A stretch of 64,000 nt of DNA. Source: Paenacidovorax monticola (GTDB lineage Bacteria > Pseudomonadota > Gammaproteobacteria > Burkholderiales > Burkholderiaceae_C). Of the stretch, positions 4,098-61,562 are shown one piece after another. Both the position numbers and the translations under genes were made by a program. The stretch covers positions 4,526,001 through 4,590,000 of the forward strand of contig NZ_CP060790.1 of the NCBI RefSeq assembly GCF_014489595.1, written 5' to 3'. Under the pieces are notes generated by a model, which was not told where the DNA came from, searched no databases, and saw only the letters and a program-made list of their open reading frames with translations. How positions within the stretch are numbered: position 1 is the first letter of the stretch; every line of letters begins with the position of its first letter.

Positions 4098-4921
4098 AAA
4101 GTTTTGAGTATTTCAAGGCCCAGGCGCTTGTCCATATGGTGCTGGCAGCTACTCTTTTCGTAGCGTATGGCGCCGTATCCGCGCAGTCCATCACCATGGC
4201 GTCGACCACCTCCACCGAGCAATCGGGCCTGTTTGGCCACCTGCTGCCCGAGTTCAAGAAGGCCAGCGGCATCGACCTCAAGGTCGTGGCCGTGGGCACG
4301 GGGCAGGCGCTCGACATGGCGCGCCGGGGCGATGCCGACGTGCTGTTCGTGCACGACCAGGCGGCCGAGGAGAAGTTCGTGGCCGACGGCTGGGGCGTGA
4401 AGCGCTACCCCGTGATGTACAACGACTTCATCCTCGTCGGCCCCAAGGCCGACCCGGCGGGCACCAAGGGCCAGGACATCGTGGGGGCGCTGCAGAAGAT
4501 CGCCGCCACGAACACCGCCTTCATCTCGCGCGGCGACAAGAGCGGCACGCATGCGGCGGAGCTGCGCTACTGGAAGCTGGCCAGCGCCGACGCGGCCAAG
4601 GGCGGCGGCTACAAGGAGTGCGGCTGCGGCATGGGGCCGGCGCTCAACATCGCAGCCTCCAGCGGCGCTTATGTGCTGGCCGACCGCGGCACCTGGCTCA
4701 ACTTCAAGAACCGCGCCGATCTGGCCATCCTTGTAGAGGGCGACAAGCGGCTCTTCAACCAGTACGGCGCGATGGTCGTAAACCCCGCCAGGCATGCGCA
4801 CGTGAAGGCGCGGGAGGCGCAGAAGTTCGTGGACTGGGTGGTGTCGCCCGCCGGGCAGGGTGTGATCGCCGCGTACAGGATCAACGGCGAGCAACTGTTC
4901 TTCCCGAATGCCGCGCAGTGA
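4094..4921 (+). CDS. tupA: Tungstate-binding periplasmic protein, TupA
   Basis: Periplasmic receptor for tungstate, 275 residues, starting at GTG 4094 overlapping the tupC stop. The mature part opens with ITMASTTSTEQSGLF, carrying the TTTS-like oxyanion loop of TupA proteins. Further family landmarks are FISRGDKSGTHAAE and NQYGAMVVNP. An N-terminal signal peptide of about 31 residues ends VSA-Q. Most of that signal peptide is encoded by one copy (4121-4166) of a two-hairpin repeat found six times in this window, so the hydrophobic core LVHMVLAATLFVAYG is repeat-derived or has converged on it. Confidence 0.93.
   Translation: MKSFEYFKAQALVHMVLAATLFVAYGAVSAQSITMASTTSTEQSGLFGHLLPEFKKASGIDLKVVAVGTGQALDMARRGDADVLFVHDQAAEEKFVADGWGVKRYPVMYNDFILVGPKADPAGTKGQDIVGALQKIAATNTAFISRGDKSGTHAAELRYWKLASADAAKGGGYKECGCGMGPALNIAASSGAYVLADRGTWLNFKNRADLAILVEGDKRLFNQYGAMVVNPARHAHVKAREAQKFVDWVVSPAGQGVIAAYRINGEQLFFPNAAQ
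4121..4166 (+). repeat. Two-hairpin repeat, copy A (inside tupA)
   Basis: Copy of a roughly 45-nt repeat. The core begins GCGCTTGTCC at 4124, has AGCT exactly at core position 24, and is followed by a second stem GCTAC / GTAGC (7-nt loop). It lies in frame within the TupA signal peptide. Confidence 0.75.
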
Positions 4922-4980
4922 GCGGGCGGCTGTCCTGGCGCGGCGGCCGGGCTTGGGCGCGCCCTGAGGCGCTGGAAGCC

Positions 4981-6684
4981 TCAAGCCGAATCGTCGTCCC
5001 GCCGGTGGCTGCTGCGCCAGATGGCGCGCACCAGCCACAGGCCGCAGACCACGGCCCCGAAGAAGCCCAGGAACCCGAAGGCCGGCAGTCCGAACAGCGT
5101 GGGGCCGCCGCGCACGGTCATCACGATGGATGAGCCCACGATGAGCGCCGCGATCACCAGCGCCATCGCGAGCCGGTTGGCGGCGCGGTCGATCTGGTCG
5201 CCCACGCGCTTGAGGTGCGCGACCTCGATGCCCACCTGCAGCCGGCCGCGCCGCGCGTTGCGCATGAGCCGGCCCAGGTCCTCGGGCAGGCGCTCGGCGG
5301 TGGACAGCAGCTGGCGCAGGGTTTGCCAGGAGCGCCGCGCCACGGCGCGCGGCGCATAGCGCTGCTGCGCCACCTCGCGCAGCAGCGGCAGGGCCTCGGC
5401 GGCCATGTGGAACTCGGGGTCCAGGTTGCGGCCCATGCCTTCGAGCGAGATGAAGGCCTTGATGAGCAGGGCCAGGTCGGGCGGCAGGCCCAGCCGGTGC
5501 TCGCGCAGGATGGCCGTCACGTCGGCCAGCATCTGCCCGAGGTTGAGCTGGGCCAGCGGCACGCCGTGGTACTGGTCCACGAAGGCCTCGATCTCGGTCT
5601 CGAGCTGCCCGGGCTGCACGCCGTGCTCGTCGCCCGCCCAGTCCAGCAGCACCTCGGCCACCGTGTGGGGCTGGCCCTCGACCAGGCCCAGCAGCAGGTG
5701 CAGCAGCTCCGAGCGGCGGCGCTGCGACAGGCGGCCGACCATGCCGAAGTCGATGAAGGCGATGCCGTTGCCCGGCAGGTAGAACACGTTGCCGGGATGC
5801 GGGTCGGCATGGAAGATGCCGTCCCGCACGATCATCTGCAGCACGGCACGCGCGCCGCGCCGCGCGAGCACCGCACGGTCGAAGCCGGCCTCGTGCGTGA
5901 GCCGGTCGAGCTGCCCGCCGGGCACGCCCTGCACGCAGTCCTGCACGTTCACGCGCTCGCCCGTGTGCTGCCAGTGCACGCGCGGAATGACGATGTGGGG
6001 CAGCGCCGCCATGTTCTGCGCGATGCGTTCGGCATGGCGGCATTCGGCGGCCAGGTTGAGTTCGCGGCGCAGCGAGCGCGCGAATTCGCGCACGAGCTGC
6101 TGCGGGTGGTAGGGCTTGAGGGCCGGCAGCTCGGTCTCGGCCAGGGCGGCCAGGCGCCCGAGCAGGCGCAGGTCGGCTTCGATCACGTCGGTGATGCCTG
6201 GGCGGCGGATCTTCACCACGACCTCGCTGCCGTCGTGCAGCTGCGCGCGGTGTACCTGGGCGATGGAGGCGGCCGCGAGCGGCTCGGTGTCGAAGCGCGC
6301 GAAGACAGCCTCGGGCTCGCCGCCCAGGTCATCGCGCAACTGGGGCCGCAGGCTGTCGAGCGGCACGGCGGGCACCTGGCTGTGGAGTTTCTCGAGTTCG
6401 GCAATCCATTCGGGGCCGAACAGGTCGGCGCGGCCCGCGAGGATCTGGCCGAACTTCACGAACGTGGGGCCCAGTTCCTCTAGCGCCAGGCGCACCTGGG
6501 CGGGCGGCTCCACGCGGGCGAGGTCGGCCGCGTGCTCCCACTTGAGCATGTGGCCCGCGCGTTCGAGCCGGTCGGCCAGGCCCAGGCGGCGCACGGTGTC
6601 GCCGAAGCCGTGGCGGATGAGCACGCCCAGGATCTCCTGCAGGCGGCCCAGGTCGCGTGCGGTGCCAAGGGTCTCGATCAGCAT
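4981..6684 (-). CDS. ABC1/UbiB-family atypical kinase
   Basis: Atypical protein-kinase-like ATPase of 567 residues related to UbiB, the membrane-bound helper of ubiquinone biosynthesis. The family-specific KxGQ motif is seen as FVKFGQ near residue 98. The Ala-rich nucleotide loop is AAASIAQVHRA, the catalytic segment is FHADPHPGNVF and the metal-binding motif is IAFIDFGMVG. Two C-terminal hydrophobic segments (ALVIAALIVGSSIVM and LFGLPAFGFLGFFGAVVCGL) fit the tail anchor of UbiB. It stands alone, convergent with tupA; no other ubiquinone genes are nearby, so it may be a UbiB paralogue rather than UbiB itself. Confidence 0.85.
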   Translation of the reverse strand: MLIETLGTARDLGRLQEILGVLIRHGFGDTVRRLGLADRLERAGHMLKWEHAADLARVEPPAQVRLALEELGPTFVKFGQILAGRADLFGPEWIAELEKLHSQVPAVPLDSLRPQLRDDLGGEPEAVFARFDTEPLAAASIAQVHRAQLHDGSEVVVKIRRPGITDVIEADLRLLGRLAALAETELPALKPYHPQQLVREFARSLRRELNLAAECRHAERIAQNMAALPHIVIPRVHWQHTGERVNVQDCVQGVPGGQLDRLTHEAGFDRAVLARRGARAVLQMIVRDGIFHADPHPGNVFYLPGNGIAFIDFGMVGRLSQRRRSELLHLLLGLVEGQPHTVAEVLLDWAGDEHGVQPGQLETEIEAFVDQYHGVPLAQLNLGQMLADVTAILREHRLGLPPDLALLIKAFISLEGMGRNLDPEFHMAAEALPLLREVAQQRYAPRAVARRSWQTLRQLLSTAERLPEDLGRLMRNARRGRLQVGIEVAHLKRVGDQIDRAANRLAMALVIAALIVGSSIVMTVRGGPTLFGLPAFGFLGFFGAVVCGLWLVRAIWRSSHRRDDDSA

Positions 6685-6724
6685 GGCTTCATGATAGCCC
6701 GCCGGACGCGGTGGAGTTCCGGGA

Positions 6725-7815
6725 TCAGTCGAGCAGCGCCACGCCCTTGACCTGGGCGAACACCGGCAGGCCCGGCGCCAATGCCAGGGCCGTGGCCGAG
6801 CGCTGGGTGACGCGCGCCAGCAGCGGCGTGCCGCCCGCGTCCAGGGCCACCATCACCTGGCCGGGGCCGTCCTCGCGCAGCGCGGTGACGCGCGCGGGCA
6901 CGATGTTGAGGATGCTCGTGCCGCTCTGGTGCGCGAGCGTGAGGCTCACGTCGCGTGCCTGCACGCGCAGGCGCACCGGCTGGCCGACGGGGCGCTCCTG
7001 CGCGCTCACGAGCTGCAGCTGGCCGCCCGGGAAATGCACGGTGGTCAGGTGGTCCGCCGTGTCGTGCCCGGCCACGGTGCCGGCCACCACGGTGGCTGCC
7101 GTGTCGCCTTGGGCCAGTGGCAGATCGAGCCGCGCCATCAGCGCCTGCGTTGGGCCGGCGGCCACCACCTGGCCCGCGCGCAGCAGCACCAGATGGTGCG
7201 CCAGGCGCGCCACCTCGTCGTGCGCGTGGCTCACGTAGACCACGGGAATGTCGAGCGTGCGTTGCAGGCGCTCGAGGTAGGGCAGCACCTCGGCCTTGCG
7301 CGGTGCGTCGAGTGCGGCGAGCGGCTCGTCCATGAGCAGCAGCGCGGGGCTGGCCGCGAGCGCGCGCGCGATCGCCACGCGCTGGCGCTCGCCGCCCGAG
7401 AGCGTGGCCGGGGCGCGGTCCATCAGGGCGCCGAGGCCCAGCAGCTCCACGGCCTGTTCGAGCGGCACGCGCCGCCGCGCGGGGGGCACGCGGCGCAGCC
7501 CGTACTCGACGTTGCCGCGCACGCTCAGGTGCGCGAACAGGCTCGCCTCCTGGAACACGTAGCCCAGCGCGCGCTGGTGCGTCGGGCGCCACAGGCCCTG
7601 GGCCTCATCCTGCCAGACCTCGCCGTTCACGGCCACGCGGCCGGTCCGGCGTTCCGGCGCGCGCTCCAGGCCCGCCAGGGCGCGCAGGCAGGTGGTCTTG
7701 CCGCAGCCCGAGGGCCGAACAGCGCGGACACGCCGCGCCCGGGCAGCTGGAGGTGCACGTCAAGCGTGAACGCGGGGCGCTGCACGCGCAGGCGGGCTTC
7801 GATCTGGGGGGTCAT
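6725..7815 (-). CDS. modC: Molybdate ABC transporter ATPase, ModC (frameshifted in this sequence)
   Basis: ATPase of the molybdate importer. It starts at ATG 7815, overlapping the modB stop (ATGA). The first roughly 35 residues are in one frame and the rest in another. The break falls inside Walker A at the ggg run 7712-7714: one extra base restores [10 protein letters not shown] and a 363-residue ModC. After the break come [11 protein letters not shown] (Q loop), [28 protein letters not shown] and a C-terminal TOBE/Mop domain ([19 protein letters not shown]), all normal for ModC. Because the coding sequence is otherwise intact, a base-calling error is more likely than a true pseudogene. Confidence 0.88.
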
Positions 7816-8489
7816 GCGCGCGGCTCCCGGGGCTGCAGCCAGTGCAGCGCCAGCAGCACAAGGAACGAGAACACCACCATGCCGCCTGCGAGCCAGTGGG
7901 CCTGGGTGTACTCGAGCGCTTCCACGTGGTCGTAGATCTGCACCGAGACCACGCGCGTCACGCCCGGGATGTTGCCGCCGAGCATGAGCACCACGCCGAA
8001 TTCGCCCACGGTGTGCGCGAAGCTCAGCACCGCCGCCGTGATGAAGCCCGGCCGCGCGAGCGGCAGCGCCACGCTGAAGAAGCGGTCCAGCGGCCCCGCG
8101 CCCAGCGTGGCGGCGGCTTCGAGCGGGTGCGCGCCCAGCGCCTCGAACGCGCGCTGCAGCGGCTGCACGGCAAAGGGCATGGAATAGATCAGCGAGCCCA
8201 CCACGAGGCCCGGAAACGTGAAGGGCAGGGTGCCCAGTCCCAGGGCCTGGGTGAGCTGCCCCAGCGGGCCGTGCGGCCCGAGCGTGACGAGCAGGTAGAA
8301 GCCGATCACCGTGGGCGGCAGCACCAGCGGCAGCGCCACCACGGCGCCCACGGGGCCGCGCCAGCGCGAGCGCGTGTGCGCGAGCCACCAGGCCAGTGGC
8401 GTGCACAGCACCAGCAGCAGCGCCGTCGTCACCGACGCGAGCTTGAGCGTCAGTGCGATGGCGGCAAGGTCTTCACCGGAAAAGGGCAT
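7812..8489 (-). CDS. modB: Molybdate ABC transporter permease, ModB
   Basis: Inner-membrane permease of the molybdate importer, 225 residues with about five membrane segments. The permease EAA-type loop is visible as [20 protein letters not shown] near residue 165, and the early [14 protein letters not shown] stretch is typical of ModB. It is encoded between modA and modC on the same strand, overlaps modC by 4 nt, and is separated from modA by 163 nt that contain a degraded copy of an intergenic repeat. Confidence 0.94.
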
Positions 8490-8575
8490 GCGGGGCAGTC
8501 AGGGACAGGGAGCGGGCAGGCAATCTTCTCAGCTTTTCATGGCGCTATTCGCGTTACCCGTGGCGGAGGAAACTG

Positions 8576-8650
8576 GCGTGCCCCAGGCCAGGGCCGCTCC
8601 GCCGCGCTGACGGCGTCCCGCTCCCGCGCAGCGCCTCAAGGGGTGTCTGC
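8576..8650 (-). repeat. Truncated copy of the long intergenic repeat
   Basis: The modA-modB spacer shows, in the same order, several blocks shared with the reverse complement of the element at 58335-58455: GCCCCAG, AGGGCCGC, CCGCCGCGCTG, CCCGCG and CAGCGCCTCA followed by GGGG. The inner hairpin of the full element is missing. This looks like an internally deleted remnant. Confidence 0.6.
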
Positions 8651-8652
8651 TT

Positions 8653-10335
<1,683 letters not shown>

Positions 10336-11439: not shown

Positions 11440-11513
11440 GGGTACTCCCTGGGGCGGCTTCGGCGCGCGGCGGGCGTGACGGGGATGGGATGCATGGTGC
11501 ACGCACGGTGCGC

Positions 11514-11527
11514 TGCAACATGTTTCA
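11514..11527. promoter_or_regulatory. Candidate operator in the regulator/hydroxylase divergent promoter
   Basis: TGCAACATGTTTCA, a 14-bp near-palindrome with one mismatched base pair. It sits between the Fis-type regulator and the hydroxylase small-subunit gene. Dyads of this kind are bound by Fis-type HTH dimers; which protein binds here is inferred. Confidence 0.4.
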
Positions 11528-11560
11528 TTTTGAGAATATCCCGCGCACGCTGCGCGCAAT

Positions 11561-11576: not shown

Positions 11577-11648
11577 GGAGGGACCAAGGGGGCGGGAACA
11601 AGATGGCGAGTGCGAATCCAGCCATCACCTTGCCAAGGAGACAGCGAG

Positions 11649-15323: not shown

Positions 15324-15351
15324 CGTTTCGCGCTTTGGATTTTTTTCGGCT

Positions 15352-15396
15352 CTGGTGCTTTTCCGCCAAGCGCCAGAAGCTATGAATTGAGTAGCA
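15352..15396 (+). repeat. Two-hairpin repeat, copy B (abuts the MoxR start codon)
   Basis: Core from 15355 (GTGCTTTTCC) with AGCT at core position 24. First stem TGGTGCTT/AAGCGCCA, second stem GCTA/TAGC. It ends directly before ATG 15397, so the usual Shine-Dalgarno position is occupied by the repeat. Confidence 0.75.
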
Positions 15397-16320
15397 ATGA
15401 GCGAGTCCTTCCCGGTCCCTGGCTCCATCGATGCGCTGGTTCAGGCCTTGCAGCGCGAGGGCTACTACGCCGACAGGCGTCTGGCCACGGCCGCCTTTCT
15501 CGCGCTCCGGCTGCAGCGTCCGCTGCTGCTCGAAGGCGAGCCCGGCGTGGGCAAGACCGCGCTTGCGCAGACCCTGGCGCGCGTGCTGGGGCGCGAACTC
15601 ATCCGCCTGCAGTGCTACGACGGCATGGAGCAGCGCGAGGCGCTCTACGAATGGAACTACGCCGCGCAGCTGCTGCACATGCGCGCGGCCGAGGGCCTGG
15701 GCGGCACCCAGAACGTGGAACGCGTGGAGCGCGAGGTGTACGACAGCCGCTACCTGATCCGCCGTCCGTTGCTGCAGGCGCTGCAGGCGCCGACACCTGG
15801 CGCGGTGCTGCTCATCGACGAGGTGGACCGCGCCGACGAGCCCTTCGAGGCCTTCCTGCTCGAGTACCTGGGCGAGTACCAGGTCAGCATTCCCGAGGTG
15901 GGCACGGTGCGCGCCGAGGCCACGCCCATCACCATCCTCACCAGCAACCGCACGCGCGACCTGCACGACGCCGTGAAGCGCCGCTGCCTGTACCACTGGC
16001 TCGACTACCCAGAGCGCGAACGCGAACTCGCCATCGTGCGCGCCCAGGTGCCGCAGGCAGGCGAGGCGCTCTCGGCCCAGGTGGCGCAATTCGTCGCACG
16101 GCTGCGCAGCCAGCCGTTCGCCAATGCCTTCCAGCGCGCGCCGGGCATTGCCGAGAGCGTGGAATGGGCCAAGGCCCTCGTCGCGCTCGACACGCTGGTG
16201 GTGGACCCCGAGATGGCCGTGGACACGGCGGGCATTTTGTTCAAGCAGCGCGAGGACGTGGCGGCGCTCACGCACGAGCTGGCCGCGCAGTTGCTGGCCC
16301 CCGAGCCAGAGGCGGCCTGA
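15397..16320 (+). CDS. MoxR-family AAA+ ATPase (CoxD-like)
   Basis: AAA+ chaperone-like ATPase of 307 residues that, with the VWA protein encoded next, is thought to insert or mature the metal centre of molybdenum hydroxylases (CoxD role). Walker A is GEPGVGKTAL near residue 47, Walker B is VLLIDEVDRADE, and the sensor-1 region is ILTSNRTRDL. The start ATG 15397 has no Shine-Dalgarno; the 45 nt before it are copy B of the two-hairpin repeat. Only one base separates its TGA from the next gene's ATG. Confidence 0.9.
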   Translation: MSESFPVPGSIDALVQALQREGYYADRRLATAAFLALRLQRPLLLEGEPGVGKTALAQTLARVLGRELIRLQCYDGMEQREALYEWNYAAQLLHMRAAEGLGGTQNVERVEREVYDSRYLIRRPLLQALQAPTPGAVLLIDEVDRADEPFEAFLLEYLGEYQVSIPEVGTVRAEATPITILTSNRTRDLHDAVKRRCLYHWLDYPERERELAIVRAQVPQAGEALSAQVAQFVARLRSQPFANAFQRAPGIAESVEWAKALVALDTLVVDPEMAVDTAGILFKQREDVAALTHELAAQLLAPEPEAA

Positions 16321-24400: not shown

Positions 24401-24559
24401 GGCGTGGGCAGCGAGCTGCGGCATCCGCTGGGGGTGACGATGGTGGGTGGGTTGATCCTGAGCCAGTTGCTCACGCTGTTCACCACGCCGGTGATCTACC
24501 TGACGTTTGAGAACTGGGCGCAGCGGTGGCGCGCGAAGCGTGGGGTGAAAAATGCCTGA
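21447..24559 (+). CDS. mdtB: RND efflux pump, MdtB-like (frameshifted in this sequence)
   Basis: Inner-membrane proton-driven multidrug pump, 1037 residues when corrected. N-terminal [22 protein letters not shown] and the mid-protein [13 protein letters not shown] (TM4 proton-relay Asp residues) are RND/HAE1 hallmarks. The frame breaks at the G run 24176-24180: one more G gives [19 protein letters not shown], joining the last roughly 120 residues ([12 protein letters not shown]...). In E. coli MdtB pairs with MdtC in a heterotrimer; the same is expected here. Copy C of the two-hairpin repeat starts at its stop codon. Confidence 0.9.
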
Positions 24560-24603
24560 AGCGCTTTTACCACCTGCGCTGGTAGCTATCATTTCTGATG
24601 GCT
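24557..24603 (+). repeat. Two-hairpin repeat, copy C (mdtB-mdtC spacer)
   Basis: Core from 24561 (GCGCTTTTAC) with GCGC at positions 16-19 and AGCT at 24. Second stem GCTATCA/TGATGGC. It starts at the mdtB stop codon and fills half of the 96-nt gap before mdtC. Confidence 0.8.
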
Positions 24604-33183: not shown

Positions 33184-33996
33184 TCACATGCCCTTGAACA
33201 GGTGCACGTACAGCCGGCTCACGGACAGCCGTTCGGGTCGTTCGCGTAGCTGCAGGTGCAGGCGCCCAGCCTCGTCGCGCTCGGCCAGGGCAATGGCACT
33301 GGCACGCACCACGGTGCCCCGGTGCACCTGCCAGAACACGGTGGGGTCCAACTGGGCCAAAAGCTCCTTGAGCGGGGTGCGGATCAGGTACTCCTGCGTG
33401 GCGGTGAGCACGCGCAGGTACTTGTCGGCCGCCTCCACGTAGATCACATCGGCCACCGGCACCATGTGGATCTGCGTGCCCTGGCTGGCCTGGATGACTT
33501 CGAGCCGGGGCGGAGGCATTGCCGCCGCACCCAGGCCCGGCGCGGCCAGCAGTGCGCGCAGCTGGGCCAGGGTGGCGTCCAGGTTGGCGCCTGACTCGGT
33601 AGCTGCCCGCGCTTGCGGGGAAAGCGCCGCACGCAGTTTCTGCACGGTTCTTTGCAGACGGGCGGCCTGTACGGGCTTCAGCAGGTAGTCCATGGCCTGC
33701 GCCTCGAAGGCCTGCACGGCGTACTGGTCGTAGGCCGTGACGAACACGAGCGCCGGGAACGGCGCCTCGGCGGGCCAGGCATCGGCCAGCTCGGCCGCCG
33801 CGTCCAGGCCGCTCTGGCCGGGCATGCGGATGTCGAAGAACAGCACCTCGGGCCGCAGCGCGAGGGCCTGCTGCACCGCGCTGAGCCCGTCGCCCACGGT
33901 GGCGGCAACGCGAAGCTCGGGCCAGGCGCGGGCCAGCTCGTGCTGGAGCGCGGCGGCCAGCAGCGGTTCATCCTCGGCGATCAGTGCTGTCGGCAT
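33184..33996 (-). CDS. LytTR-family response regulator
   Basis: Two-component response regulator of 270 residues. The receiver domain has EDE near residue 8, the phospho-acceptor Asp in FFDIRMPGQSG and the Lys in YLLKPVQ. After a long Ala-rich linker comes a LytTR DNA-binding domain (VIYVEAADKYLRVLT, FWQVHRGTVVRASAI). It overlaps the 3' end of the kinase gene by 29 nt and is its evident partner. Targets are unknown; LytTR regulators often act on cell-surface or peptide-uptake genes. Confidence 0.92.
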   Translation of the reverse strand: MPTALIAEDEPLLAAALQHELARAWPELRVAATVGDGLSAVQQALALRPEVLFFDIRMPGQSGLDAAAELADAWPAEAPFPALVFVTAYDQYAVQAFEAQAMDYLLKPVQAARLQRTVQKLRAALSPQARAATESGANLDATLAQLRALLAAPGLGAAAMPPPRLEVIQASQGTQIHMVPVADVIYVEAADKYLRVLTATQEYLIRTPLKELLAQLDPTVFWQVHRGTVVRASAIALAERDEAGRLHLQLRERPERLSVSRLYVHLFKGM

Positions 33997-35044
33997 GGGT
34001 CTTCCATGGAAAAGTGACGATGGCGCTGGTTCCGCCTGCGCTGCCAGCTATCAATTCAAGGGTGCCGGCGGTGCCGTACAGCGTGGCCAGCCGCTCGCGC
34101 ACCTGCTGCAGGCCGAAGTGGGTGCCGGGTTGGCGGGCGGCATGCGCCGGGACACCGCCGTGTAGCCCAGCGCCCGTGTCGTGCACGCTGAGCTGCACGC
34201 GCGCGCCATCTTGAAGCAGCCGGGCCTGCACGTCGATGCGCCCGCCCGCGATCTGTGGCTCCAGCCCGTGGTGGATGGCGTTCTCCACCAGCGGCTGCAG
34301 CAGCAGCGGCGGCACGAGCGCGCCGTGCAGCGCCTCGGGCAGGTCGAACCCATAGGCCAGGCGCGGCCCCATGCGCACGGCCATGAGTTCCAGGTAGTCG
34401 GCCAGCCGCGCGAACTCGTCGGCCAGCGGGTGCTGGATGCGGCGCGACGCGGCGAGCGTGGCGCGCAGGTAGGCGATGAGGCGGTCCAGCATGTGCTGCG
34501 CGCGGTCCGGGTCGGTGGCGATGAGCACGCGCAGGTTGGCCAGCGTGTTGAACAGCATGTGCGGCTCGAGCTGCGTCTCCAGCAGGCGCAGCTGGGCCTC
34601 GGTGGCCTGGCTGTGCGCCTCGGCCATGCGGGCTTCGAGCCATGCGCTCTTGCCCCGGTTGTAGAAGTAGTAGGTACCCGCCGTGCCCGCGAGCAGCGTG
34701 ATGCCAATCGAGATGCGCAGCTGCGTGCCGTCCGACGTCCAGGTGGACAGGCCCGTCCACTGGTCCGCCAGGGCGGTGCCGGCCACGTAGCCCAGCACCA
34801 TGCCCCCGGCGGGCAGGGCCAGCCCGGGCCAGCCCGTGGGCCAGCCGGTCTGTGCGCTGGAGGGGAACAGGTGGCGCCCGATGTCGATGAGCGCCCAGGT
34901 CAGCGTGCCGATGGCCAGCGAATACTTGAGCGGAATGTCGTAGGCTTGCTCGGGCCGGAAGGCGTACTGGATGGCCGAGATCGCCAGGCAGAAGGCCAGG
35001 GTCTGCAGCAGGTGCCGCAGCTTGTCGATCCAGTCGATGCGCAT
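33968..35044 (-). CDS. LytS/AlgZ-type sensor histidine kinase
   Basis: Membrane histidine kinase of 358 residues from ATG 35044. Four N-terminal hydrophobic segments are followed by a His_kinase (PF06580-type) domain whose phospho-acceptor is the His of LEPHMLFNTLANL. The ATPase N-box is PLVENAIHHGLEPQI, with G motifs in LSVHDTGAGLHG and GTHFGLQQVRERL. The last strand of the ATPase domain (LELIAGSAGGTSAIVTF) is encoded by copy D of the two-hairpin repeat. Transcribed with the LytTR regulator and preceded by a 2TM gene. Confidence 0.9.
   Translation of the reverse strand: MRIDWIDKLRHLLQTLAFCLAISAIQYAFRPEQAYDIPLKYSLAIGTLTWALIDIGRHLFPSSAQTGWPTGWPGLALPAGGMVLGYVAGTALADQWTGLSTWTSDGTQLRISIGITLLAGTAGTYYFYNRGKSAWLEARMAEAHSQATEAQLRLLETQLEPHMLFNTLANLRVLIATDPDRAQHMLDRLIAYLRATLAASRRIQHPLADEFARLADYLELMAVRMGPRLAYGFDLPEALHGALVPPLLLQPLVENAIHHGLEPQIAGGRIDVQARLLQDGARVQLSVHDTGAGLHGGVPAHAARQPGTHFGLQQVRERLATLYGTAGTLELIAGSAGGTSAIVTFPWKTHADSTDRRG
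34021..34061 (+). repeat. Two-hairpin repeat, copy D (inside the LytS-type kinase)
   Basis: Core from 34023 (GCGCTGGTTCCGCC) with GCGC at 16-19, AGCT at 24 and then ATCAATTCAA. It is antisense to, and translated as, the last strand of the kinase ATPase domain. Confidence 0.65.
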
Positions 35045-47002: not shown

Positions 47003-49608
47003 TTCAGCCGCTTGAGCTGGTAGAGCGCGTCGAGCGCCTCGCGCGGGCTCAGGGCGTCGGGGTTGATGGCCGCGAGCGCGGCCTCCACGGGGCTGGCCAC
47101 GGCCATCTCGGGCTCGGGCGGAGGGGCAAACAGGTCCACCTGCAGCTCGTCCTCGCCCGCGCGCTCCTCCAGCGCCGCGAGCGCGTGGCGCGCGTGGTGC
47201 AGCACGGCGGCGGGCATGCCCGCCAGTTTGGCGACCTGGATGCCGTAGCTGCGGCTCGCCGGGCCCGGCTGGATCTCGTGCAGGAACACGATGTCGCTGC
47301 CCGACTCGGTGGCGCTCACATGCATGTTGACCGCATGGCGTGCCTTGGCGGGCAGTTCGGTCAGTTCGAAATAGTGCGTGGCGAACAGCGTGAACGCGCG
47401 CGTGCGGTCGTGCAGCTGCGTGGCGATGCCGCTGGCCAGCGCCAGGCCATCGAAGGTGCTGGTGCCGCGGCCGATCTCGTCCATCAGCACCAGACTGTGC
47501 GGCGTGGCCGCGTGCAGGATCTGCGCGGCCTCGGTCATCTCCAGCATGAAGGTCGATTGCGCGTTGGCCAGGTCGTCGGCGGCGCCGATGCGCGTGTGGA
47601 TGGCGTCGATGGGACCCAGGCGGCAGCTCGTGGCTGGCACGTGGCTGCCCATGCTGGCCAGCAGTACGATGAGCGCCACCTGGCGCATGTAGGTCGATTT
47701 GCCGCCCATGTTGGGGCCGGTGATGATCTGCAGCCGCGTGTTGGCGTTCAGGCGCGTGTGGTTGGCGATGAAGGCGCCGCTCGATGTCTCGGCCAGGCGC
47801 GCCTCCACCACCGGGTGGCGCCCGCCCTCGATCTCGATGCAGGGCTCCTGCACGAACTGCGGGGCGCACCAGTTCAGCGTGAGCGAACGCTCGGCCAGCG
47901 TGCACAGCACATCGAGCGCGGCCAGGGCCTGGGCCAGGCGCGTGAGCGCGGGCACATGGGGCTGGAGTTCGTCCAGCACCTGCTCGTAGAGCCACTTCTC
48001 GCGCGCCAGCGCGCGCTCCTGGGCCGACAGCGCCTTGTCCTCGAAGGCCTTCAGTTCGGGCGTGATGAAGCGTTCGGCGTTCTTGAGCGTCTGGCGGCGG
48101 CGGTAGTCGTCGGGCACGCGGTCGAGGTTGCTGCTCGTGACCTCGATGTAGAAGCCGTGCACCTTGTTGAACTGCACGCGCAGGTTGGCGATGCCGGTGC
48201 GCGCCTTCTCGCGCGTCTCCAGTTCCAGCAGGAAGCTGTCGCAGTTGGTCTGGATGGCGCGCAGCTCGTCCAGCTCGGCGTCGAAGCCGCCCGCGATCAC
48301 GCCGCCGTCGCGCACCAGCGCGGCGGGTTCCTCCAGGATGGCGCGCTGCAGCAGCTCGGCACAGCCGGGCGGTGGCTGCAGGTCGGCGAAGATCTGCGTC
48401 AAGAGTGCCGATGGCGCTTGCCCATTCTGCGCAAGCTGCTCTGCTTTTTGTAGTGTCTTGCCCAGGGCCACGAGTTCGCGCGGGCGCACTTGGCGCAGCG
48501 CGGTGCGTGCCGTGATGCGCTCCACGTCGCTCACGCCCTTGAGCGCGCCGCGCAGCACCTGCCAGGGCGCGGCGCCGGCGCCACCGCCCGCGCGCAACAC
48601 CTCGGTGGCCACGAGGCGCTCGCGCGCGGGGGCGCGGTCGCGCGGGGGCTCCAGCAGCCAAGCCTTGAGCAGGCGGCTGCCCATGCCGGTCATGCAGGTG
48701 TCCAGCAGCGAGAACAGCGTGGGGCTGTCTTCGCCGCGCAGGGTCTTGACGAGTTCGAGGTTGCGCCGCGTGGCCGGAGGCAGGGCGATGAGCGCGTCGT
48801 CGCGCTGCACCTGCACGGTGTGCACGTGGGTGAGCTGGCGGCCCTGCGTGTGCTCGGCGTACGACAGCAGCGCCGCCGTGGCCGCATGGGCCTGGGCCAG
48901 GTCCTGCGCGTCCCAGGCGTTCAGGCTGGCAGCGCCCAGGTGTTCGAGCAGCTTGCGCTCGCCCAGGGCGCTGTCGAACTGCCAGTCGGGCCGGGGGCTG
49001 ATGGGGCAGGTGAAGGCGCCGGACTGGCGCAGCGACTGCAGCTGTTGCTCGAAGCGCTCGGTCACCCCGGCGCTGTAGATGAGTTCACTGGGCGCCACGC
49101 GGGCCAGCCAGGCGCCCAGCTCTTCGCTGGCGCACTCGGCCAGGTACACGCGCCCCTGCGTCACGCTGAGCCAGGCCAGGCCGCAGCGCGCGCGCGGACC
49201 CTGGTGCACGGCCAGCAGCATGGATTCGGCCTTGTCCGACAGCAGCTCGCTGTCGGTGAGCGTGCCGGGCGTGACCACGCGCACCACCTTGCGCTCCACC
49301 GGCCCCTTGGCCGTGGCCACATCGCCCACCTGCTCGGCGATGGCGACCGACTCGCCCATCTTGATGAGTCGGCCCAGGTAGTTTTCCAGCGCATGGAAGG
49401 GCACGCCCGCCATCACTACGGGCCCGCCGCCCGACTGGCCGCGCTGCGTGAGCGTGATGTCCAGCAGCCGCGCGGCCTTCTCGGCGTCCTGCCAGAACAG
49501 CTCGTAGAAATCCCCCATGCGGTAGAAGAGCAGCGTGTCGGGGTGCCCGGCCTTGAGGCTCAGGTACTGCTGCATCATGGGGGTGTGGTGTTCGAACGTG
49601 TCGGACAT
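46993..49608 (-). CDS. mutS: DNA mismatch repair protein MutS
   Basis: Mismatch-recognition ATPase of 871 residues, starting [16 protein letters not shown] (ATG 49608), which matches the normal MutS N-terminus. The mismatch-binding motif is [15 protein letters not shown] (Phe-x-Glu as FYE). The ATPase has [29 protein letters not shown] and [10 protein letters not shown]. Domain lengths are normal, except that [20 protein letters not shown] near residue 390 is encoded by copy E of the two-hairpin repeat, in frame. Convergent with an exported hypothetical and divergent from the c-di-GMP cassette. Confidence 0.97.
48412..48454 (+). repeat. Two-hairpin repeat, copy E (inside mutS)
   Basis: Core from 48414 (GCGCTTGCCC), GCGC at 16-19 and TGCT at position 24, followed by CTGCTTTTTGTAG. 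It lies antisense to mutS, which reads through it in frame. Confidence 0.75.
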
Positions 49609-55300: not shown

Positions 55301-57172
55301 TGGGCGATGCGCTGCGGCTGGGTCAGATCCTCATCAACTTCGCCAACAACGCCATCAAGTTCACGGAGGCGGGCGAGATCGACATCGTGGTGCGCGTGCA
55401 GGAGCTCCGGGCGGACGGGGTGGTGCTGCGCTTCGAGGTGCGCGACACGGGCATCGGCCTCACGCCCGAGCAGATGGGGCGGCTGTTCCAGAGCTTCCAG
55501 CAGGCCGACACTTCCACCACGCGGCGCTACGGCGGCACGGGGCTGGGCCTGGCAATCTGCAAGAACCTCGCGCGCCTCATGGGCGGCGACGTGGGGGCCG
55601 AGAGCGTGCATGGCCAGGGCTCGCGCTTCTGGGTCACGCTGCCGCTTGCCTACGGGGCGCCCGCGCCGCGCCGCGAACTGCCTGCCACGGGGCTGCACGG
55701 CGGGCGCGTGCTCGTGGTGGACGACAACCACACGGCGGCCACCGTGCTGTGCGACATGCTGGAGTCGCTGGGCTTCGAGGCCGAGCAGACCCATTCGGGG
55801 GCCGATGCCCTGGTGGCCGTGCGCCGTGCCGTGGAGCAGGGGCGTCCCCACGGGCTGCTGCTGCTCGACTGGCACATGCCGGGCATGGACGGCATCGAAC
55901 TGGCGCGGCGCATCCGCGCGATGGGGATCGGGCAGGTGCCGCAGATGCTCATGATCACGGCCTACGGGCGCGAGGATGTGATGCGCGCGGCGCGCGCGCA
56001 GGGGATCGACACGGTGCTCATCAAGCCCGTGAGCGCCTCGGTACTGTTCGACACGCTGATGCAGCCCATCGAGTACATGGCGCCCCACGCGCCCAACCGG
56101 GCGGGCCTGGACGACCCGCAGCAGCAGGCGCTGCTGGCGCCCGTGCGCGGCGCCTCGGTGCTGCTCGTGGAGGACAACGAGCTGAACCAGCTCGTGGCCG
56201 TGGAACTGCTGCGCGACGCGGGCTTCGCTGTGGATGTGGCGGCCAACGGGCAACTGGCCCTGGACTGCATCGAGCGCAAGGCGTACGACATCGTGCTCAT
56301 GGACATGCAGATGCCCGTGATGGACGGCGAGACCGCCACGCGCCGCCTGCGCGCCCAGCCGCGCCACGCTGACCTGCCCGTGGTGGCCATGACCGCGAAC
56401 GCGCTGGAAGCGGACCGCGAGCGCTGCTTTGCCGCGGGCATGAACGACCACGTGGCCAAGCCCATCGACCCCGCCATGCTGTGGCGCGCGCTGGCGCGCT
56501 GGATCCGCCCCCGGCCGGGGCTGGCGGCGCGCGTGGAGCCGCTCGCACCTTCGGACGCCTCGCCGGCACCGCAGGGGCCGGCCCTGCCGCAGGCCCTGCC
56601 CGGCGTGGACCTGGCCCTGGGCCTGCGGCGTGCGCTGGGCCGGCCGGCGCTCTACGCCGACATGCTGCGGCGCTTCGCGCAGGGCCAGGGCGGGCTGGAG
56701 CGCGAACTGGAAGGCGCCCTGCGCGACGGCGATCTGCTGCGCGCCGAGCGCATGGCCCATACGCTGCGCTCCGTGGCCGCCAACATCGGCGCCGAGCCGC
56801 TGTCGGCCCAGGCCCAGGCGCTGGAACAGGCCCTGCGCGCCCAGGAGGGGCCGGCGCCCCTGCGGGCGCTGCGCGCGGAGCTGCTGCGGCACCTCGCCCC
56901 CTTGCTGGGGCTCTGGAGGCCTGGCGCGATCAGGCGGACGCCGCTGTGCCCGCGCCCACGGCGGCCCCCCGGTGGCGGCCCCCGAGGCGCTGCGCCAGCT
57001 GCGCCGGCTGCTGGTGGACGACGATCCTGCAGCCGCCGAATATTTGCAACAAAATGCTACTATTCTGGAGTCCACGCTCGGGGCCGCCTTTGGCCTGGTG
57101 GAGTCCAGGACCCGGGAGTTCGAATTTGAGCAGGCCCTGGAGGCGATCGACGCCGCCGGGCCAGGATCGTGA
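52348..57172 (+). CDS. Multi-PAS hybrid sensor histidine kinase with two receivers and HPt (frameshifted near 3' end)
   Basis: Very large membrane phosphorelay kinase, 1608 residues when corrected; ATG 52348 follows GGAGG. Order: TM helix (27-47), periplasmic Cache-like sensor, TM helix (about 313-335), four PAS domains (about 350-860), HisKA with [15 protein letters not shown], HATPase ([24 protein letters not shown]), receiver 1 ([13 protein letters not shown]), receiver 2 ([14 protein letters not shown]) and an HPt domain ([13 protein letters not shown]). Two base losses in homopolymers (56907-56910 and 56965-56970) shift the tail; corrected, it ends [20 protein letters not shown]... at 57172. 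Confidence 0.9.
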
Positions 57173-57203
57173 AACCGCGCGCCAAGCCATCCCCAGGAGC
57201 ACC

Positions 57204-58334
57204 ATGGACCACGCCCCGTTTTTCGTCGAGAAGTCGGTGTACGTCGAGAAACCCATTGCCACGGTGCTCGTGGTGGACGACACGCCGGACAACCTGACGC
57301 TGATGGGCGGGCTGCTGCGCGACCACTACCACGTGAAGGTGGCCAACCACGGCGAGAAGGCGCTCAAGATCGCGCAAGGCGACAACCCGCCCGACCTGAT
57401 CCTGCTCGACATCATGATGCCCGGCATCGACGGCTACGAGGTCTGCCGCCGGCTCAAGGCGCATTCGGCCACGCGGGACATTCCGGTGATCTTCCTCACC
57501 GCGCGCTCCGACCCCGACGACGAGCGCCAGGGGCTGGCACTGGGCGCGGTGGACTACATCACCAAGCCCATCAGCCCGCCCATCCTGCTCGCGCGCGTGG
57601 CGACGCACCTGGCGCTCAAGGCCACGGCCGATTTCCTGCGCGACAAGAGCGCCTACCTGGAGCGCGAGGTGGCCCTGCGCACGCTGGAGGTGCAGGCCAT
57701 CCAGGACGTGACCATCATGGCCATGACCTCGCTGGCCGAGACGCGCGACAACGAGACGGGCAACCACATCCGGCGCACCCAGCTCTACGTGCGCGCGCTG
57801 GCCGAGCGGCTGCGCGGCCATCCGCGCTTCGAGCACCTGCTCAACGACCGCATGATCGAACTGCTGTACAAGTCGGCGCCGCTGCACGACATCGGCAAGA
57901 TCGGCATTCCCGACAGCATCCTCCTCAAGCCGGGCAAGCTCACGGTGGAGGAGTTCGAGATCATGAAGACCCACACCACGCTGGGCCGCAACGCCATCGA
58001 GGACGCCGAGCGGCGCCTGGGCATGCGCGTGGCCTTTCTGAGCGTGTCCAAGGAGATCGCCTACAGCCACCAGGAGAAATGGGATGGCTCGGGCTACCCG
58101 GAGGGGCTCGCGGGCGACGAGATTCCGGTGTCGGCGCGGCTCATGGCCGTGGCCGACGTGTACGACGCGCTCATCAGCAAGCGCGTGTACAAGCCCGCGT
58201 TCTCGCACGACCAGGCCTGCGCCACCATCGTGAAGGGGCGGGGCACGCATTTCGACCCGGACATGGTGGATGCCTTCGTCGAGATCGCCGAAGACTTCCG
58301 CAGCATCGCGCAGAAGTACCCCGACCCGGAATAG
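57204..58334 (+). CDS. REC-HD-GYP c-di-GMP phosphodiesterase
   Basis: Response regulator of 376 residues. The receiver (residues about 20-140) has VVDDTPDN, the phospho-Asp in [15 protein letters not shown] and TKPISPP. The HD-GYP domain follows with [41 protein letters not shown] and ADVYDAL, all the metal-binding and GYP residues. It degrades c-di-GMP. It lies 31 nt after the hybrid kinase, whose HPt domain is the natural phosphate donor. Confidence 0.94.
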
Positions 58335-58455
58335 GGGGCTACCCCCTGAGGCGCTGCGCGCCTTCCCCCTTCTCTCGCTGCGCGCTGCTTCGCGGGAAGG
58401 GGGACGACGCCAGCGCGGCGGGGCGGCCCTTGCGCGGCGTCCGCTGGCTGGGGCA
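58335..58455 (+). repeat. Long nested-palindrome intergenic repeat
   Basis: Between the HD-GYP gene and suhB. It holds the dyads GGCGC-TGC-GCGCC, CTTCCCCCTT... with GGGAAGGGGGA, and GCCAGCG...CGCTGGC. Similar long palindromic spacers are familiar from Comamonadaceae genomes (recalled, not searched). A shortened copy lies at 8576-8650. Confidence 0.65.
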
Positions 58456-58513
58456 GCGTTGGTGTCAGGCGCAGTGCCTCGGCACGCCGGGCAGGCCCGC
58501 CGAAACGGGAGGC

Positions 58514-59428
58514 TTATTCGCCGTCGCCGTCGTTGCCGTCCGCGTCAGAGGCCTCGGGCGCGGCTTCTGGCTCGGCGGCATCTTCCTGGGCCTGGCGCAC
58601 GGCGGCCTTGTCGCCGGCTGCCGCGAACTTGCTGTACTTGCCGAGGATGGGCACCAGCTGGCCGTAGATGCGCGGGTTGCCGGCCATGCACTCCTTCTGC
58701 TCCATGAAGTCGGCCTCGCCCGTGAAGTTGCCCACCAGGCCGCCGGCCTCGGTCACCAGCAGCGAGCCGGCCGCCACGTCCCAGATCGACAGGCCCGTCT
58801 CGAAGAAGCCGTCGGTGAAGCCCGCGGCCACATAGGCCAGGTCCAGCGCGGCGGCGCCGGGGCGGCGCAGGCCGGCCGTACGCTGCATCACGTCGGCCAT
58901 GATGGCCATGTAGTTCTTGAAGTTGTCACCCGGGCGGAAGGGGAAGCCCGTGGAGATCAGGCAGTCCTTGAGCTGGGTGCGCTTGGACACGCGGATGCGG
59001 CGCTCGTTCAGGTACGCGCCGCGGCCCTTGGTGGCGGTGAACAGGTCGTTGCGCGTGGGGTCGTAGACCACGGCCTGCTCGACCTTGCCCTTGACGGTGA
59101 GCGCGATGCTCACGCAGTACACGGGAAAGCCGTGGATGAAGTTGGTGGTGCCGTCCAGCGGGTCGATGACCCAGATGAAGTCCGAGTCCTTGGCGCCGTG
59201 CTGGCGGCCGGTCTCTTCCGCGAGGATGCCGTGGCCCGGGTAGGCAGTGAGCAGCGTATCGATGATCGCCTGCTCGGCTGCGTGGTCCACCTCGGTCACG
59301 AAGTCGTTCACCTGCTTTTGCGAGATGCGCACCGATTCCACGTCGAGCGCGGCGCGGTTGATGATGGCGCCGGCGGCGCGAGCGGCCTTGATGGCCACGT
59401 TGAGCATGGGGTGCAGGTTGGACGACAT
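58514..59428 (-). CDS. suhB: Inositol-1-monophosphatase SuhB
   Basis: Magnesium-dependent phosphatase of the inositol monophosphatase family, 304 residues; SuhB also takes part in rRNA transcription antitermination. Metal-site motifs are [19 protein letters not shown] and [15 protein letters not shown]. The C-terminus is extended by about 35 Ala/Glu/Asp-rich residues. It starts at ATG 59428 with little Shine-Dalgarno signal. In E. coli suhB faces trmJ with cysE nearby; the same set occurs here, with one gene inserted. Confidence 0.93.
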
Positions 59429-59447
59429 AAATTGTGGAAGAAGGACA

Positions 59448-59468
59448 AAAGGCCCGCGCGGCGGGCCC
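59448..59468 (-). terminator. Terminator-like hairpin in the suhB leader
   Basis: Stem GGCCCGC / GCGGGCC with a 3-nt loop, then TTTT on the minus strand, ending 20 nt before the suhB ATG. It could be an attenuator or a terminator for upstream transcription. Confidence 0.55.
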
Positions 59469-59543
59469 GAACCGGCGATGCGGCGGGCAGGGGAGGGATT
59501 CTACCCGCTGCGGTGTTTTTCGTCGCCGGGCCGCCCCGGAATG

Positions 59544-59565
59544 AAAAACGGCCCCCTGGGGGCCG
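59544..59565 (-). terminator. Intrinsic terminator after the repeat-domain gene
   Basis: Minus-strand stem CGGCCCCC / GGGGGCCG followed by TTTTT, 38 nt after the stop of the gene at 59603-60555. Canonical rho-independent form. Confidence 0.75.
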
Positions 59566-59602
59566 CGACCCGCTCGGTGGCGGGGGGAAGGGGAGATGGG
59601 CT

Positions 59603-60555
59603 TCAGGGTAGCCGCAGTTGCTGGCGTTCCTCCACGGTCACCTCCTGCACGCGGCTGTCGCCTTGGCTGAACTCCACGCGCAGGGTCTTGCGCACGCGGG
59701 GGCGGGGTCGACGCCGGCAAGGTCGTTGTCCACCCACACGTCCAGCCGCCCGCCCTGCACGCGGCTGCGCAGGCGCGCGGTCACGTCGACCTGGCGGTAG
59801 CCGTCGCCATAGATGGCGCGGTGGATGACGAGCCGGCCGTAGCCCGGGTCGCCGCCGGGGTAGCCGCCCCCGCCGGCGAGCTGCGCGGTGTCCACCCAGC
59901 TCGAATCCGGGTACTCGGCGTAGCGGCCGCCCTGGCCGCGCAGGTGGATGCGCAGCGTCTTGTACTGGCCGGGGGCCGGGTCGCCCGCGAACAGGCGGCT
60001 GTCCACGCGGAAGCCGCGCTCATGGCGCGCGAGCTGGCGGATGCGGTCCGTCACGTCGACGCGGGACTCCTCGGTGCCGTAGGTGGCCTGTTCGACCGGG
60101 CTGTAGTCCTGGCCTTGCCATCCGCTGCCGCCGCCCTGCCAGCCTCCACCGCCTTGCCAGCCGCCGCCGGGCCAGCCGGGGCCCTGGCCCCACTGGCCGC
60201 CGCCGCCCCAGCCCGTGAACTGGGCGCCGTCCACCCAGCTGTACTCGCGGTACTCGAAGCTGCGCACCTGGCCGTCGCGTCCGCGCGCCTGGATCCACAG
60301 GGTCTTGCGCTGGCCCGGGGCCGGGTCGGCGTTGAACAGGTCGTTGGTGAGCTTGAAGCGCTGGTCGCGGCCGACCAGCTGGCGCAGCCGCTGCGTCACG
60401 TCGATGCTGGCCTGTTCCGTGCCGTACACGGCCTGCAGGATCTGGTATTCGCCGTCGTCGCCGCGCTGGGCCCAGCTGGCGGATGAGAGCATCAGCGCGA
60501 ACAGGAACAGCAGCCAATGGCCCAGGGTGCGGGGACTTCGAAGCGGGGTATGCAT
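59603..60555 (-). CDS. Exported protein with three repeated domains and a Gly/Trp linker (frameshifted in this sequence)
   Basis: Periplasmic or surface protein, 317 residues when corrected, with a signal peptide ending SSASWAQ. Three copies of a roughly 65-residue unit follow the pattern YGTEQASIDVTQRLRQL...LFNADPAPGQRKTLWI...SWVDTAQL, at about 30-95, 145-215 and 240-310. The first two are joined by a Gly/Trp/Gln-rich linker (GGWQGGGGWQGGGSGWQ). The unit resembles DUF3395 as I recall it. The frame breaks at the G run 59698-59702; one more base restores RVRKTLRVEFSQGD. RBS GAGGAGG. Function unknown. Confidence 0.75.
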
Positions 60556-60779
60556 GGGGCCTCCTCGTGTGGTTGTGTGGGTGAAACGGCGCCCCCCGGT
60601 CGGGCGGCGGCCTGTGGGCTTAACGCCTGCCGCACGGGCGGCGTGCACAGGGCTCGGTGGCCTGTGCCGGGGTTTTACATCAGGACACAGGGCTCGGCAA
60701 CGCGGGGGCGCTGTCCGTGCCTGCCACCAGCGGCGACAATGGCGGGTTGCCTCCGGGCCCGTTCCTTCCGCCATCCGCC

Positions 60780-61562
60780 ATGCGCACCCGCTTCATCCTC
60801 ATCCATACCAGCCATGCCGGCAACGTCGGCGCCGCCGCCCGCGCCATGAAAACCATGGGCTTCGACGACCTGGTGCTGGTGGCGCCGCGCTGGCCCAACG
60901 TGCTGCGGCGCGAGGAAACCATCCAGCGCGCGAGCGGTGCGCTGGACGTGCTGCACAACGCGCGCATCGTCGAGACGCTGGACGAGGCGCTCGACGGCAT
61001 GACCCACCTGTGCGCCACCGCCATGACGCCGCGCGACTTCGGCCCGCCCACGCGGTCGCCGCGCGGACACTTTGACTTGCTCCTGAAAGGAGAGCTGGGT
61101 GCGCAGAACCAGCAAGCGCCAGGAGGCGATTCAGTCCAAAGGACGGCGCCCGAGGCCGGGGTGGCCTTCCTGTTCGGCTCCGAGCGCTTCGGCATGGCCA
61201 ACGAGGATGTGTACCGCTGCCACGTGGCGCTCTCCATCCCCACCAATCCCGGCTTCGGGTCGCTGAACCTGGGCGCGGCCATCCAGGTCGTCGCCTACGA
61301 ATGGCGCCAGGCCCTGGGCGGCTTCGCGGTGCAGGACGCGCTGCCGACGCCCGACCGCGCCGATGCCGCGCAGGTGGCGGGCATGCTGGGGCATTGGGAG
61401 CAGGCGCTCACGGCCATCGGCTTCCTGGACCCGGCGGCGCCCAAGAAGCTCATGCCGCGCCTGAACCAGCTTTTCAACCGCGCGCAACTCACCCCTGAGG
61501 AAATCCACATCCTGCGCGGTGTTGCCAAGGCCATGCTGCAGGCCGGCGCGCCGAAACGATAG
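60780..61562 (+). CDS. trmJ: tRNA 2'-O-methyltransferase TrmJ
   Basis: SPOUT-family methyltransferase that 2'-O-methylates position 32 of tRNAs, 260 residues. N-terminal RFILIHTSHAGNVGAAARAMKTMG and the SAM-knot motifs FLFGSERFGMANED and SIPTNPGFGSLNLGAAIQVV are typical. Between them, about 15 residues (LLLKGELGAQNQQAPG) are encoded by copy F of the two-hairpin repeat, in frame, where other TrmJ proteins have a short loop. Neighbours suhB and cysE match the E. coli arrangement. Confidence 0.92.
   Translation: MRTRFILIHTSHAGNVGAAARAMKTMGFDDLVLVAPRWPNVLRREETIQRASGALDVLHNARIVETLDEALDGMTHLCATAMTPRDFGPPTRSPRGHFDLLLKGELGAQNQQAPGGDSVQRTAPEAGVAFLFGSERFGMANEDVYRCHVALSIPTNPGFGSLNLGAAIQVVAYEWRQALGGFAVQDALPTPDRADAAQVAGMLGHWEQALTAIGFLDPAAPKKLMPRLNQLFNRAQLTPEEIHILRGVAKAMLQAGAPKR
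61078..61121 (-). repeat. Two-hairpin repeat, copy F (inside trmJ)
   Basis: On the minus strand the core GCGCTTGCTGG starts at 61119, with GCGC at 16-19 and AGCT at 24, then CTCCTTTCAGGAGC. It encodes a loop insert in TrmJ. Confidence 0.78.

Follow-up and report, generated by a model that had tools for sequence, protein, structure and literature searches.

A dispersed 64-bp repeat of Paenacidovorax monticola and other Comamonadaceae as a candidate double-stranded DNA recognition site

What kind of element is the short palindromic repeat that recurs along a 64,000-nucleotide stretch of the Paenacidovorax monticola genome (NZ_CP060790.1, positions 4,526,001 to 4,590,000; hereafter the window)? 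A first-pass annotation of the window described six copies with a gapless 30-nt core and two hairpins, and suggested that they may be a non-autonomous mobile palindrome. Our analysis points in another direction: we lean, if only slightly, towards reading the repeat as a site of about 64 bp that is recognised in double-stranded DNA by a predicted trans-acting DNA-binding factor of some Comamonadaceae lineages, a proposal drawn from sequence comparison. Genomes and loci are cited below by G and L numbers, G000 being the P. monticola genome.

All six copies are present where they had been placed, and their cores align without gaps; the 30-nt core belongs to a unit that is really 64 bp long, and a seventh copy had been overlooked (Table 1). 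To avoid judging the window copies by a model made from them, a 64-column matrix was trained on 122 copies of two other genera and zero copies of G000. With this matrix the seven copies are the top seven places of the window, at 23.6 to 63.3 bits; the next-best place scores -18.2 bits, and nothing in the reversed window exceeds -7.1 bits. The earlier view that chance is an unlikely origin was likewise borne out, as the core pattern GCGCTTNNNCNNNNNGCGCNNGNAGCTAT, allowing at most three mismatches, is matched 7 times in the window while shuffles predict 0.33. Four of the seven copies (the seventh, D, E and F) are contained in open reading frames (ORFs) predicted by a rough gene caller.

Table 1. 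The seven copies of the 64-bp unit in the window, scored with the matrix from other genera
Copy	Position	Strand	Score (bits)	Predicted gene context
A	4103..4166	+	39.6	between co-directed predicted genes
B (best of the window)	15334..15397	+	63.3	between co-directed predicted genes (end 15323, start 15397)
C	24540..24603	+	35.3	overlaps the stop of a predicted gene
Seventh	33585..33648	-	23.6	within a predicted ORF
D	34002..34065	+	30.8	within a predicted ORF
E	48393..48456	+	38.1	within a predicted ORF of the other strand
F	61077..61140	-	35.9	within a predicted ORF

The extent of the unit was determined with a covariance model built from 36 G000 copies, which yielded 172 hits (overlapping hits of the palindrome on opposite strands being merged) in 1.26 Mb consisting of the window, 20 spaced G000 stretches and 20 stretches each of G071 and G014. 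Logo and pair counts are based on 161 of these hits, taken without gaps; left out were six that are not 91 bases long and five from a G071 integron, for which the gene beyond was not called and two of which are identical through cassette duplication. In these copies from three genera the unit comprises columns 10 to 73 and carries 53.4 bits. Its left part has a T-rich start, an A/T step at 18-21, GSC at about 24-26 and GCGC at 31-34, and its right part GCGC at 46-49, RGC-AGCTAT at 51-59, an A/T step at 62-64 and TAG at 68-70, so that near-invariant blocks (GCGC / GCGC-N-RGC-AGCTAT / TAG) stand at fixed spacing, with columns 40 and 50 being almost random. A second, named set of 143 copies came from 80 of 119 stretches and was reduced to 138 by removing those sharing at least 56 of 64 positions; it was picked by an exact pattern fixing part of the unit, and its variation is therefore biased. 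Across the 299 pooled copies, A or T fills columns 19, 20 and 62-64 in 95-98% of cases, in host genomes of 65-70% G+C: some columns tolerate A or T, and hardly G or C. As a control, places were picked by columns 10-30 and 50-73 alone, giving 233 places against 3 in reversed sequence (training copies included), and these keep GCGC at 46-49 in 90-97% while column 40 holds 0.05 bit. The uneven conservation is thus not an artefact of the search, since selection by the flanks shows the same pattern; such sharp contrasts between adjacent columns are not what decay of a repeat would leave. The 64 columns show no conservation peak at the helical period of 10.5 bp (2.4, against 6.6 at 12), and the sites of IHF and DnaA, compared by their consensuses, do not fit. 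Neither the window nor eight loci of other copies matched an Rfam family at its gathering score.

We were then curious to know how widely the unit is distributed. The expectation that a profile search would find many more copies in this genome was confirmed, with 306 pattern matches in G000 and 0 for the reversed pattern; the looser core pattern gave 279 against 28. Among 200 Comamonadaceae genomes, 39 have at least 50 matches (70 to 1,018), 11 have 10-49 and 150 fewer than 10, with controls of 0-3. No comparable excess was found with the looser pattern in 195 genomes of the order Burkholderiales outside the family, where the largest count was 47 (G154, control 90), and a few genomes lie above their controls (e.g. 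G259, 24 vs 3; G250, 23 vs 5). Named contigs among the matches listed belong mostly to Acidovorax, Ottowia, Comamonas, Paracidovorax, Paenacidovorax, Diaphorobacter and Giesbergeria, and some metagenome-assembled genomes (MAGs) among them are labelled otherwise, e.g. Rubrivivax or Pseudoxanthomonas. The exact pattern also occurs in 38 stretches of a viral collection, and one copy used as query matched 9 of 72,556 plasmid records at E 0.01, a search of low sensitivity given that copies are about half identical. The model count (whose maximum stands for at least about 43) and the pattern count disagree for G063 (11 vs 561) and G019 (42 vs 4); in the latter the model may have picked up a variant form of the unit or a separate hairpin repeat. 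A different dispersed repeat, CCTCCTGAGTCGCC...GCGGCGCCTTCCCCC, was noticed at L317 11197-11278 and 7784-7846 and lies at many places in G013, G379, G381, G412 and others.

Copy number differs sharply between congeners: 420 vs 0 in G070/G411, 117 vs 1 in G013/G379 and 570 vs 110 in G071/G412, and in 400 kb of G411 even weak matches are no commoner than in reversed sequence. Two copy-poor genomes, G017 (2 matches) and G381 (1), group among copy-rich ones in five- and six-protein trees, the nodes that place G017 being well supported in the first tree and poorly in the second. At the site called J1 below, G017 retains a remnant of 17.2 bits on the same strand and at offset 49, against 48 in G009/G087, and G412 a more decayed one of 0.0 bits. 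Repeated loss is the simplest reading of this uneven distribution, although separate gains may have occurred.

Is the repeat, then, a mobile palindrome, as first proposed? In its most tenable form, an ancient element resembling a repetitive extragenic palindromic (REP) sequence or a miniature inverted-repeat transposable element (MITE) would have been scattered between genes in ancestors by a lost or unrecognised transposase, leaving old copies subject to ordinary loss. We consider this unlikely as a full account. The defined unit fits it, as do the strong differences in copy number between and within genera and pairwise identities slightly more spread than in shuffles, and so does site B of the window. 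There, the orthologous junction carries a copy in G003 and G014 in the same orientation and in G008 in the opposite one, while several relatives (G001, G005, G011 and others) have almost no gap, so that the repeat may once have spread by insertion. Other relatives have unrelated sequence in gaps of 49 to 343 nt, and no copy was seen at the remaining junctions compared. In G014, G034 and G018 (L209, L211, L219) the gap contains an unrelated repeat of the GAGGACGCGAAGG type, to which G014 adds a weak copy of the unit as its neighbour; the same junction thus tolerates unrelated repeats.

At four sites of one block (J1 to J4) in Acidovorax, 30 loci from 40 genomes searched, including the reference and a 99% identical genome, revealed no clean empty site. 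A copy is present at J1 in 23 of 23 loci, at J2 in 15 of 15, at J3 in 11 of 11 (three scoring only 20-30 bits) and at J4 in 13 of 15, always in one orientation per site, and the two remaining J4 loci (19.2 and -3.1 bits) look decayed. Across genera, with a matrix score above 20, 15 of 24 genomes have a copy at J1 (G000 being counted by the covariance model) and 8 at J2, again in one orientation; a weaker J2 hit in G034, lying in a stretch aligned to the next gene, was not counted. These old J2 copies score like any others (51-65 bits in 6 genera, two weaker ones 30-31). In G013 and its sister G379 the gap at J1 is of equal length and aligns base by base by eye, so that part of the history of J1 ran by point mutation. 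Within genomes, the highest pairwise identity is 46, 51 and 51 of 64 in the three genomes (without the five integron copies), within the range of column shuffles, and the near-identical exceptions in the named set are two: a pair sharing 58/64 positions inside a single Acidovorax MAG, and an identical pair whose members come from two differently labelled MAGs. Besides, A/T-only columns should not survive neutral decay in genomes of such G+C content. A MITE is not supported, near-identical families being rare and clean empty sites absent from the Acidovorax loci examined; nor was any recent copy with an empty site found on which a target-site duplication could be measured.

The annotation had also advised looking for a REP-associated tyrosine transposase (RAYT). 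G000 has a single RAYT-like gene of the Y1_Tnp family, and the 3327 bases of L001 around it hold matches with 5 mismatches only and no copy. Y1_Tnp was found in 31 of 37 genomes with model matches and in 42 of 63 without (p = 0.10), and is lacking in G094, which has 128 pattern matches. A REP carried by a RAYT was rejected on both counts, the missing neighbour and the unclear co-occurrence, and together with the stable Acidovorax sites and the rarity of near-identical copies these results leave present mobility unsupported. The G000 gene is followed at L001 2180-2280 by a TGTCCCC / TCTGACCCCA-type sequence of the kind known from another RAYT group and unrelated to the 64-bp unit. In G014 there are 20 Y1_Tnp matches, and the identical scores of several of them look like those of an IS200-type element present in multiple copies.

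The position of copies relative to genes raises a second alternative, namely an element of 3' ends that acts at the RNA level and is read both ways, the first palindrome serving as bidirectional terminator or mRNA stabiliser; we think this quite improbable. Genes were called with a codon-bias script, so the number of copies inside genes is rough: 36 of the 172 hits lie within called ORFs, 131 are intergenic and 5 have no called gene beyond them (for G000, 39 hits were used, the four weakest of 43 being omitted). Expressed as copies over gaps of at least 40 nt, where one gap can count twice, there are 31 copies in 98 convergent, 89 in 467 co-directed and 11 in 148 divergent gaps, and the convergent and divergent densities differ (p = 1.4e-6). 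This bias towards convergent gaps and 3' ends, which REP sequences share and which thereby also fits the mobile reading, agrees with the count published for Acidovorax ebreus TPSY, 44 convergent, 4 divergent and 59 co-oriented (PMC5217627), and both favour an RNA element. Orientation shows no preference for the strand of co-directed genes (40 same, 49 opposite, p = 0.40), and where co-directed genes are separated by a long gap, a position closer to the stop is not clearly favoured (27/43). A few copies do resemble terminators built of A tract, hairpin and T tract (L023, L044, L051). Nevertheless, no T tract is conserved after the hairpin in the 161-copy logo, and canonical terminators outside the unit are equally frequent with and without it, at 9 of 85 vs 53 of 382 co-directed 3' ends and 15 of 54 vs 36 of 142 convergent ones, which does not support an intrinsic terminator replacing the canonical ones. 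One copy, moreover, sits between genes that adjoin in relatives.

The RNA reading depends above all on pairing, and here the two hairpins first described hold up as palindromes in the consensus but are poorly supported as conserved base pairs. In stem 2 Watson-Crick pairs are as frequent as expected or rarer (58-68, 78 vs 85.7; 59-67, 76 vs 80.3; 161 copies), which leaves it without covariation. In stem 1 the same copies show a weak excess over independent columns at two outer pairs (55 vs 38.2; 86 vs 70.5) and little at the inner ones (103 vs 94.0; 36-44, 87 vs 85.2; 37-43, 90 vs 85.8), and the outer excess is missing in the named set, where pair 36-44 exceeds instead (116 vs 107.0). Part of the stem-1 excess may come from decayed copies that have lost both sides. 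Of the two RNA hairpins, the second is thus unsupported and the first weakly supported, conservation of sequence far exceeding that of pairing.

Two further placements were tried and dropped. Spacing is near-random (coefficient of variation 1.06 for 147 of 150 listed G000 positions) and a hand count, for which the GC skew of the sampled stretches served to guess origin and terminus, assigns 71 copies to the leading strand and 76 to the lagging one, which does not suggest a mark linked to replication. Scarcity in foreign-looking DNA was seen in G014 only, where four stretches with G+C below 0.63, a cut chosen after viewing the table, hold 1 copy and the other sixteen 75, two of the four carrying a phage integrase or resolvase; G000 shows the opposite, with copies if anything commoner in low-G+C stretches (rho -0.53, p 0.017), and G071 no trend.

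That the copies are a by-product, each persisting through its own recruitment as a promoter, ribosome binding site or terminator, is scarcely credible: at J1 the gene strand retains CTATAATTT, which resembles a -10 box, in 7 of the 10 aligned genera as well as 23 Acidovorax loci, and a copy such as L031 terminates in AGGAG immediately before a start codon, but the same columns are conserved in every gene context, including convergent gaps and predicted ORFs, so that one common cause is needed. J1 is not a typical site; in the examples at L035 8162-8252 and L317 8868-8958 it looks as if taken over as a promoter.

We therefore return to the recognition site as the favoured reading. Recognition of double-stranded DNA is suggested by the near-independence of the columns, the A/T-tolerant steps, the lack of strand preference and the site-by-site persistence, and a single trans-acting reader by hundreds of sites being kept or lost together. 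A putative protein would read all copies from DNA; each copy would itself be the target of selection, or of biased copying, that maintains it; loss of the factor would let the whole set decay; and the 3'-end bias would reflect where 64 bp are tolerated. With its roughly 53 bits, copy numbers reaching about 1,000 per chromosome, stability by site across genera and near-absence in congeners, the signal calls for a genome-wide reader, and congeneric pairs with and without the unit (G070/G411, G013/G379) should make it findable by comparing their gene contents.

Several observations weigh against this reading, of which the first is that the reader protein is itself putative. A length of 64 bp with 53 bits is very long for a single binding site, and the mean copy matches the consensus at only 38.2 of 51 positions. 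Pairwise identities spread wider than in column shuffles (standard deviations 5.0, 4.4 and 4.1 vs 3.5), so the copies are not fully independent draws, and the site B copy of G008 lies in the opposite orientation. In the 299 pooled copies, five stem-1 pairs (30-50, 35-45, 36-44, 29-51 and 37-43) exceed expectation by 5-24% (p 0.0005 to 0.04), for instance 105 vs 84.5 at 30-50, 218 vs 203.9 at 35-45 and 203 vs 189.0 at 36-44, and the first palindrome may therefore have some hairpin role. The uneven distribution could also stem from a mobile element that is silent today but was active in several independent bursts.

Among the roles that such a recognition site might have, marking self DNA for uptake is the one most worth testing, a chromosome-organising or transcription-boundary protein being about as likely. 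To our knowledge, sequence-specific DNA uptake signals are known from two families only, and the unit would then be the signal of a third, independently evolved system of sequence-specific natural transformation; we rate this specific proposal as decidedly unlikely. A left A/T step, the palindrome GCGC...GCGC, the core GCGCNRGCAGCTAT, a second A/T step and TAG would together form a long composite site, read as double-stranded DNA by a pilus- or membrane-borne protein, and copies would accumulate and persist through biased uptake and recombination and vanish genome-wide upon loss of the receptor. What makes the idea attractive is the account in PMC4212676 that Verminephrobacter eiseniae needs type IV pili for transformation, which foreign DNA largely fails to outcompete, that A. 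temperans and A. facilis are transformable and that transformation is selective in Verminephrobacter and Acidovorax. Contigs of A. facilis carry the unit; contigs labelled A. defluvii carry it too, which speaks against an uptake role, as transformation went undetected in that species, and so does the reported failure of DNA from other Acidovorax species, which should share the unit, to transform A. temperans (PMC4212676). It is also a point against it that known uptake sequences resemble the unit neither in length nor in how far copies stray from the consensus. If true, the proposal could explain the published selective transformation in earthworm symbionts and would add a third case of the phenomenon.

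The unit also occurs in mobile gene cassettes. At L257 15900-20000, G071 has what by eye is a chromosomal integron, with an integrase-like frame at its end and a series of attC-type sites, and five cassettes there carry the unit in one orientation. The ends of attC sites are formed by RYYYAAC / GTTRRRY core sites. The unit was rejected as an attC site itself: the CTAAC...TTAGAC-type motifs of the integron stand apart from it, and it sits inside the cassettes. On NZ_KJ541071.1 (L326 1387-1704), in the integron of an Escherichia coli plasmid adjoining resistance cassettes, the Pfam domain DUF1010 (PF06231) of an ORF starts with the translated unit (FQAFLASSAYAASASSYRSCS). Cassettes similar to this one lie in the G071 integron (L257 15900-19300), and on these two grounds the DUF1010 family may be partly a reading of the DNA repeat.

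How does the unit compare with repeats already described? Searches of the literature with letter strings of the repeat gave no paper on it, and the sole precursor found is a section of PMC5217627 listing two short pairs of spaced motifs in two genomes, GCTTAT(N)5AAGCG in A. ebreus TPSY and ATAGCT(N)22CAAAAG in Polaromonas naphthalenivorans CJ2, with 114 and 125 copies, mostly intergenic. By our comparison, the former is the centre of the unit (GCGCTTATCCATCAAGCGC) and the latter fits its right half read backwards; in that section the pairs stand without unit, boundaries, distribution or function. The Beta-proteobacterial repeat element (BRE) of Bordetella, about 90 bp long, is likewise dispersed, mostly intergenic and reported from Comamonadaceae, yet it differs, by the description in PMC3110155, in its mean G+C, which is 69% in Bordetella, in a copy number that does not exceed 29 per genome and in the presence of tandem copies.

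REP sequences and bacterial interspersed mosaic elements (BIMEs) are short palindromic intergenic repeats found near gene 3' ends in hundreds of copies, and in this the unit resembles them; it departs from the REP/RAYT system in lacking an adjacent RAYT in G000 and a clear Y1_Tnp association, in its scant stem covariation and in sites fixed across genera. Compared with the DNA uptake sequences (DUS) of Neisseriaceae and the uptake signal sequences (USS) of Pasteurellaceae, the unit is far longer (64 bp vs 9-11 bp, the DUS length as given in PMC4212676), lies mostly outside genes and has copies far from the consensus. It nonetheless shares with them hundreds to a thousand copies in both orientations, each of them kept, and A/T-only flank positions.

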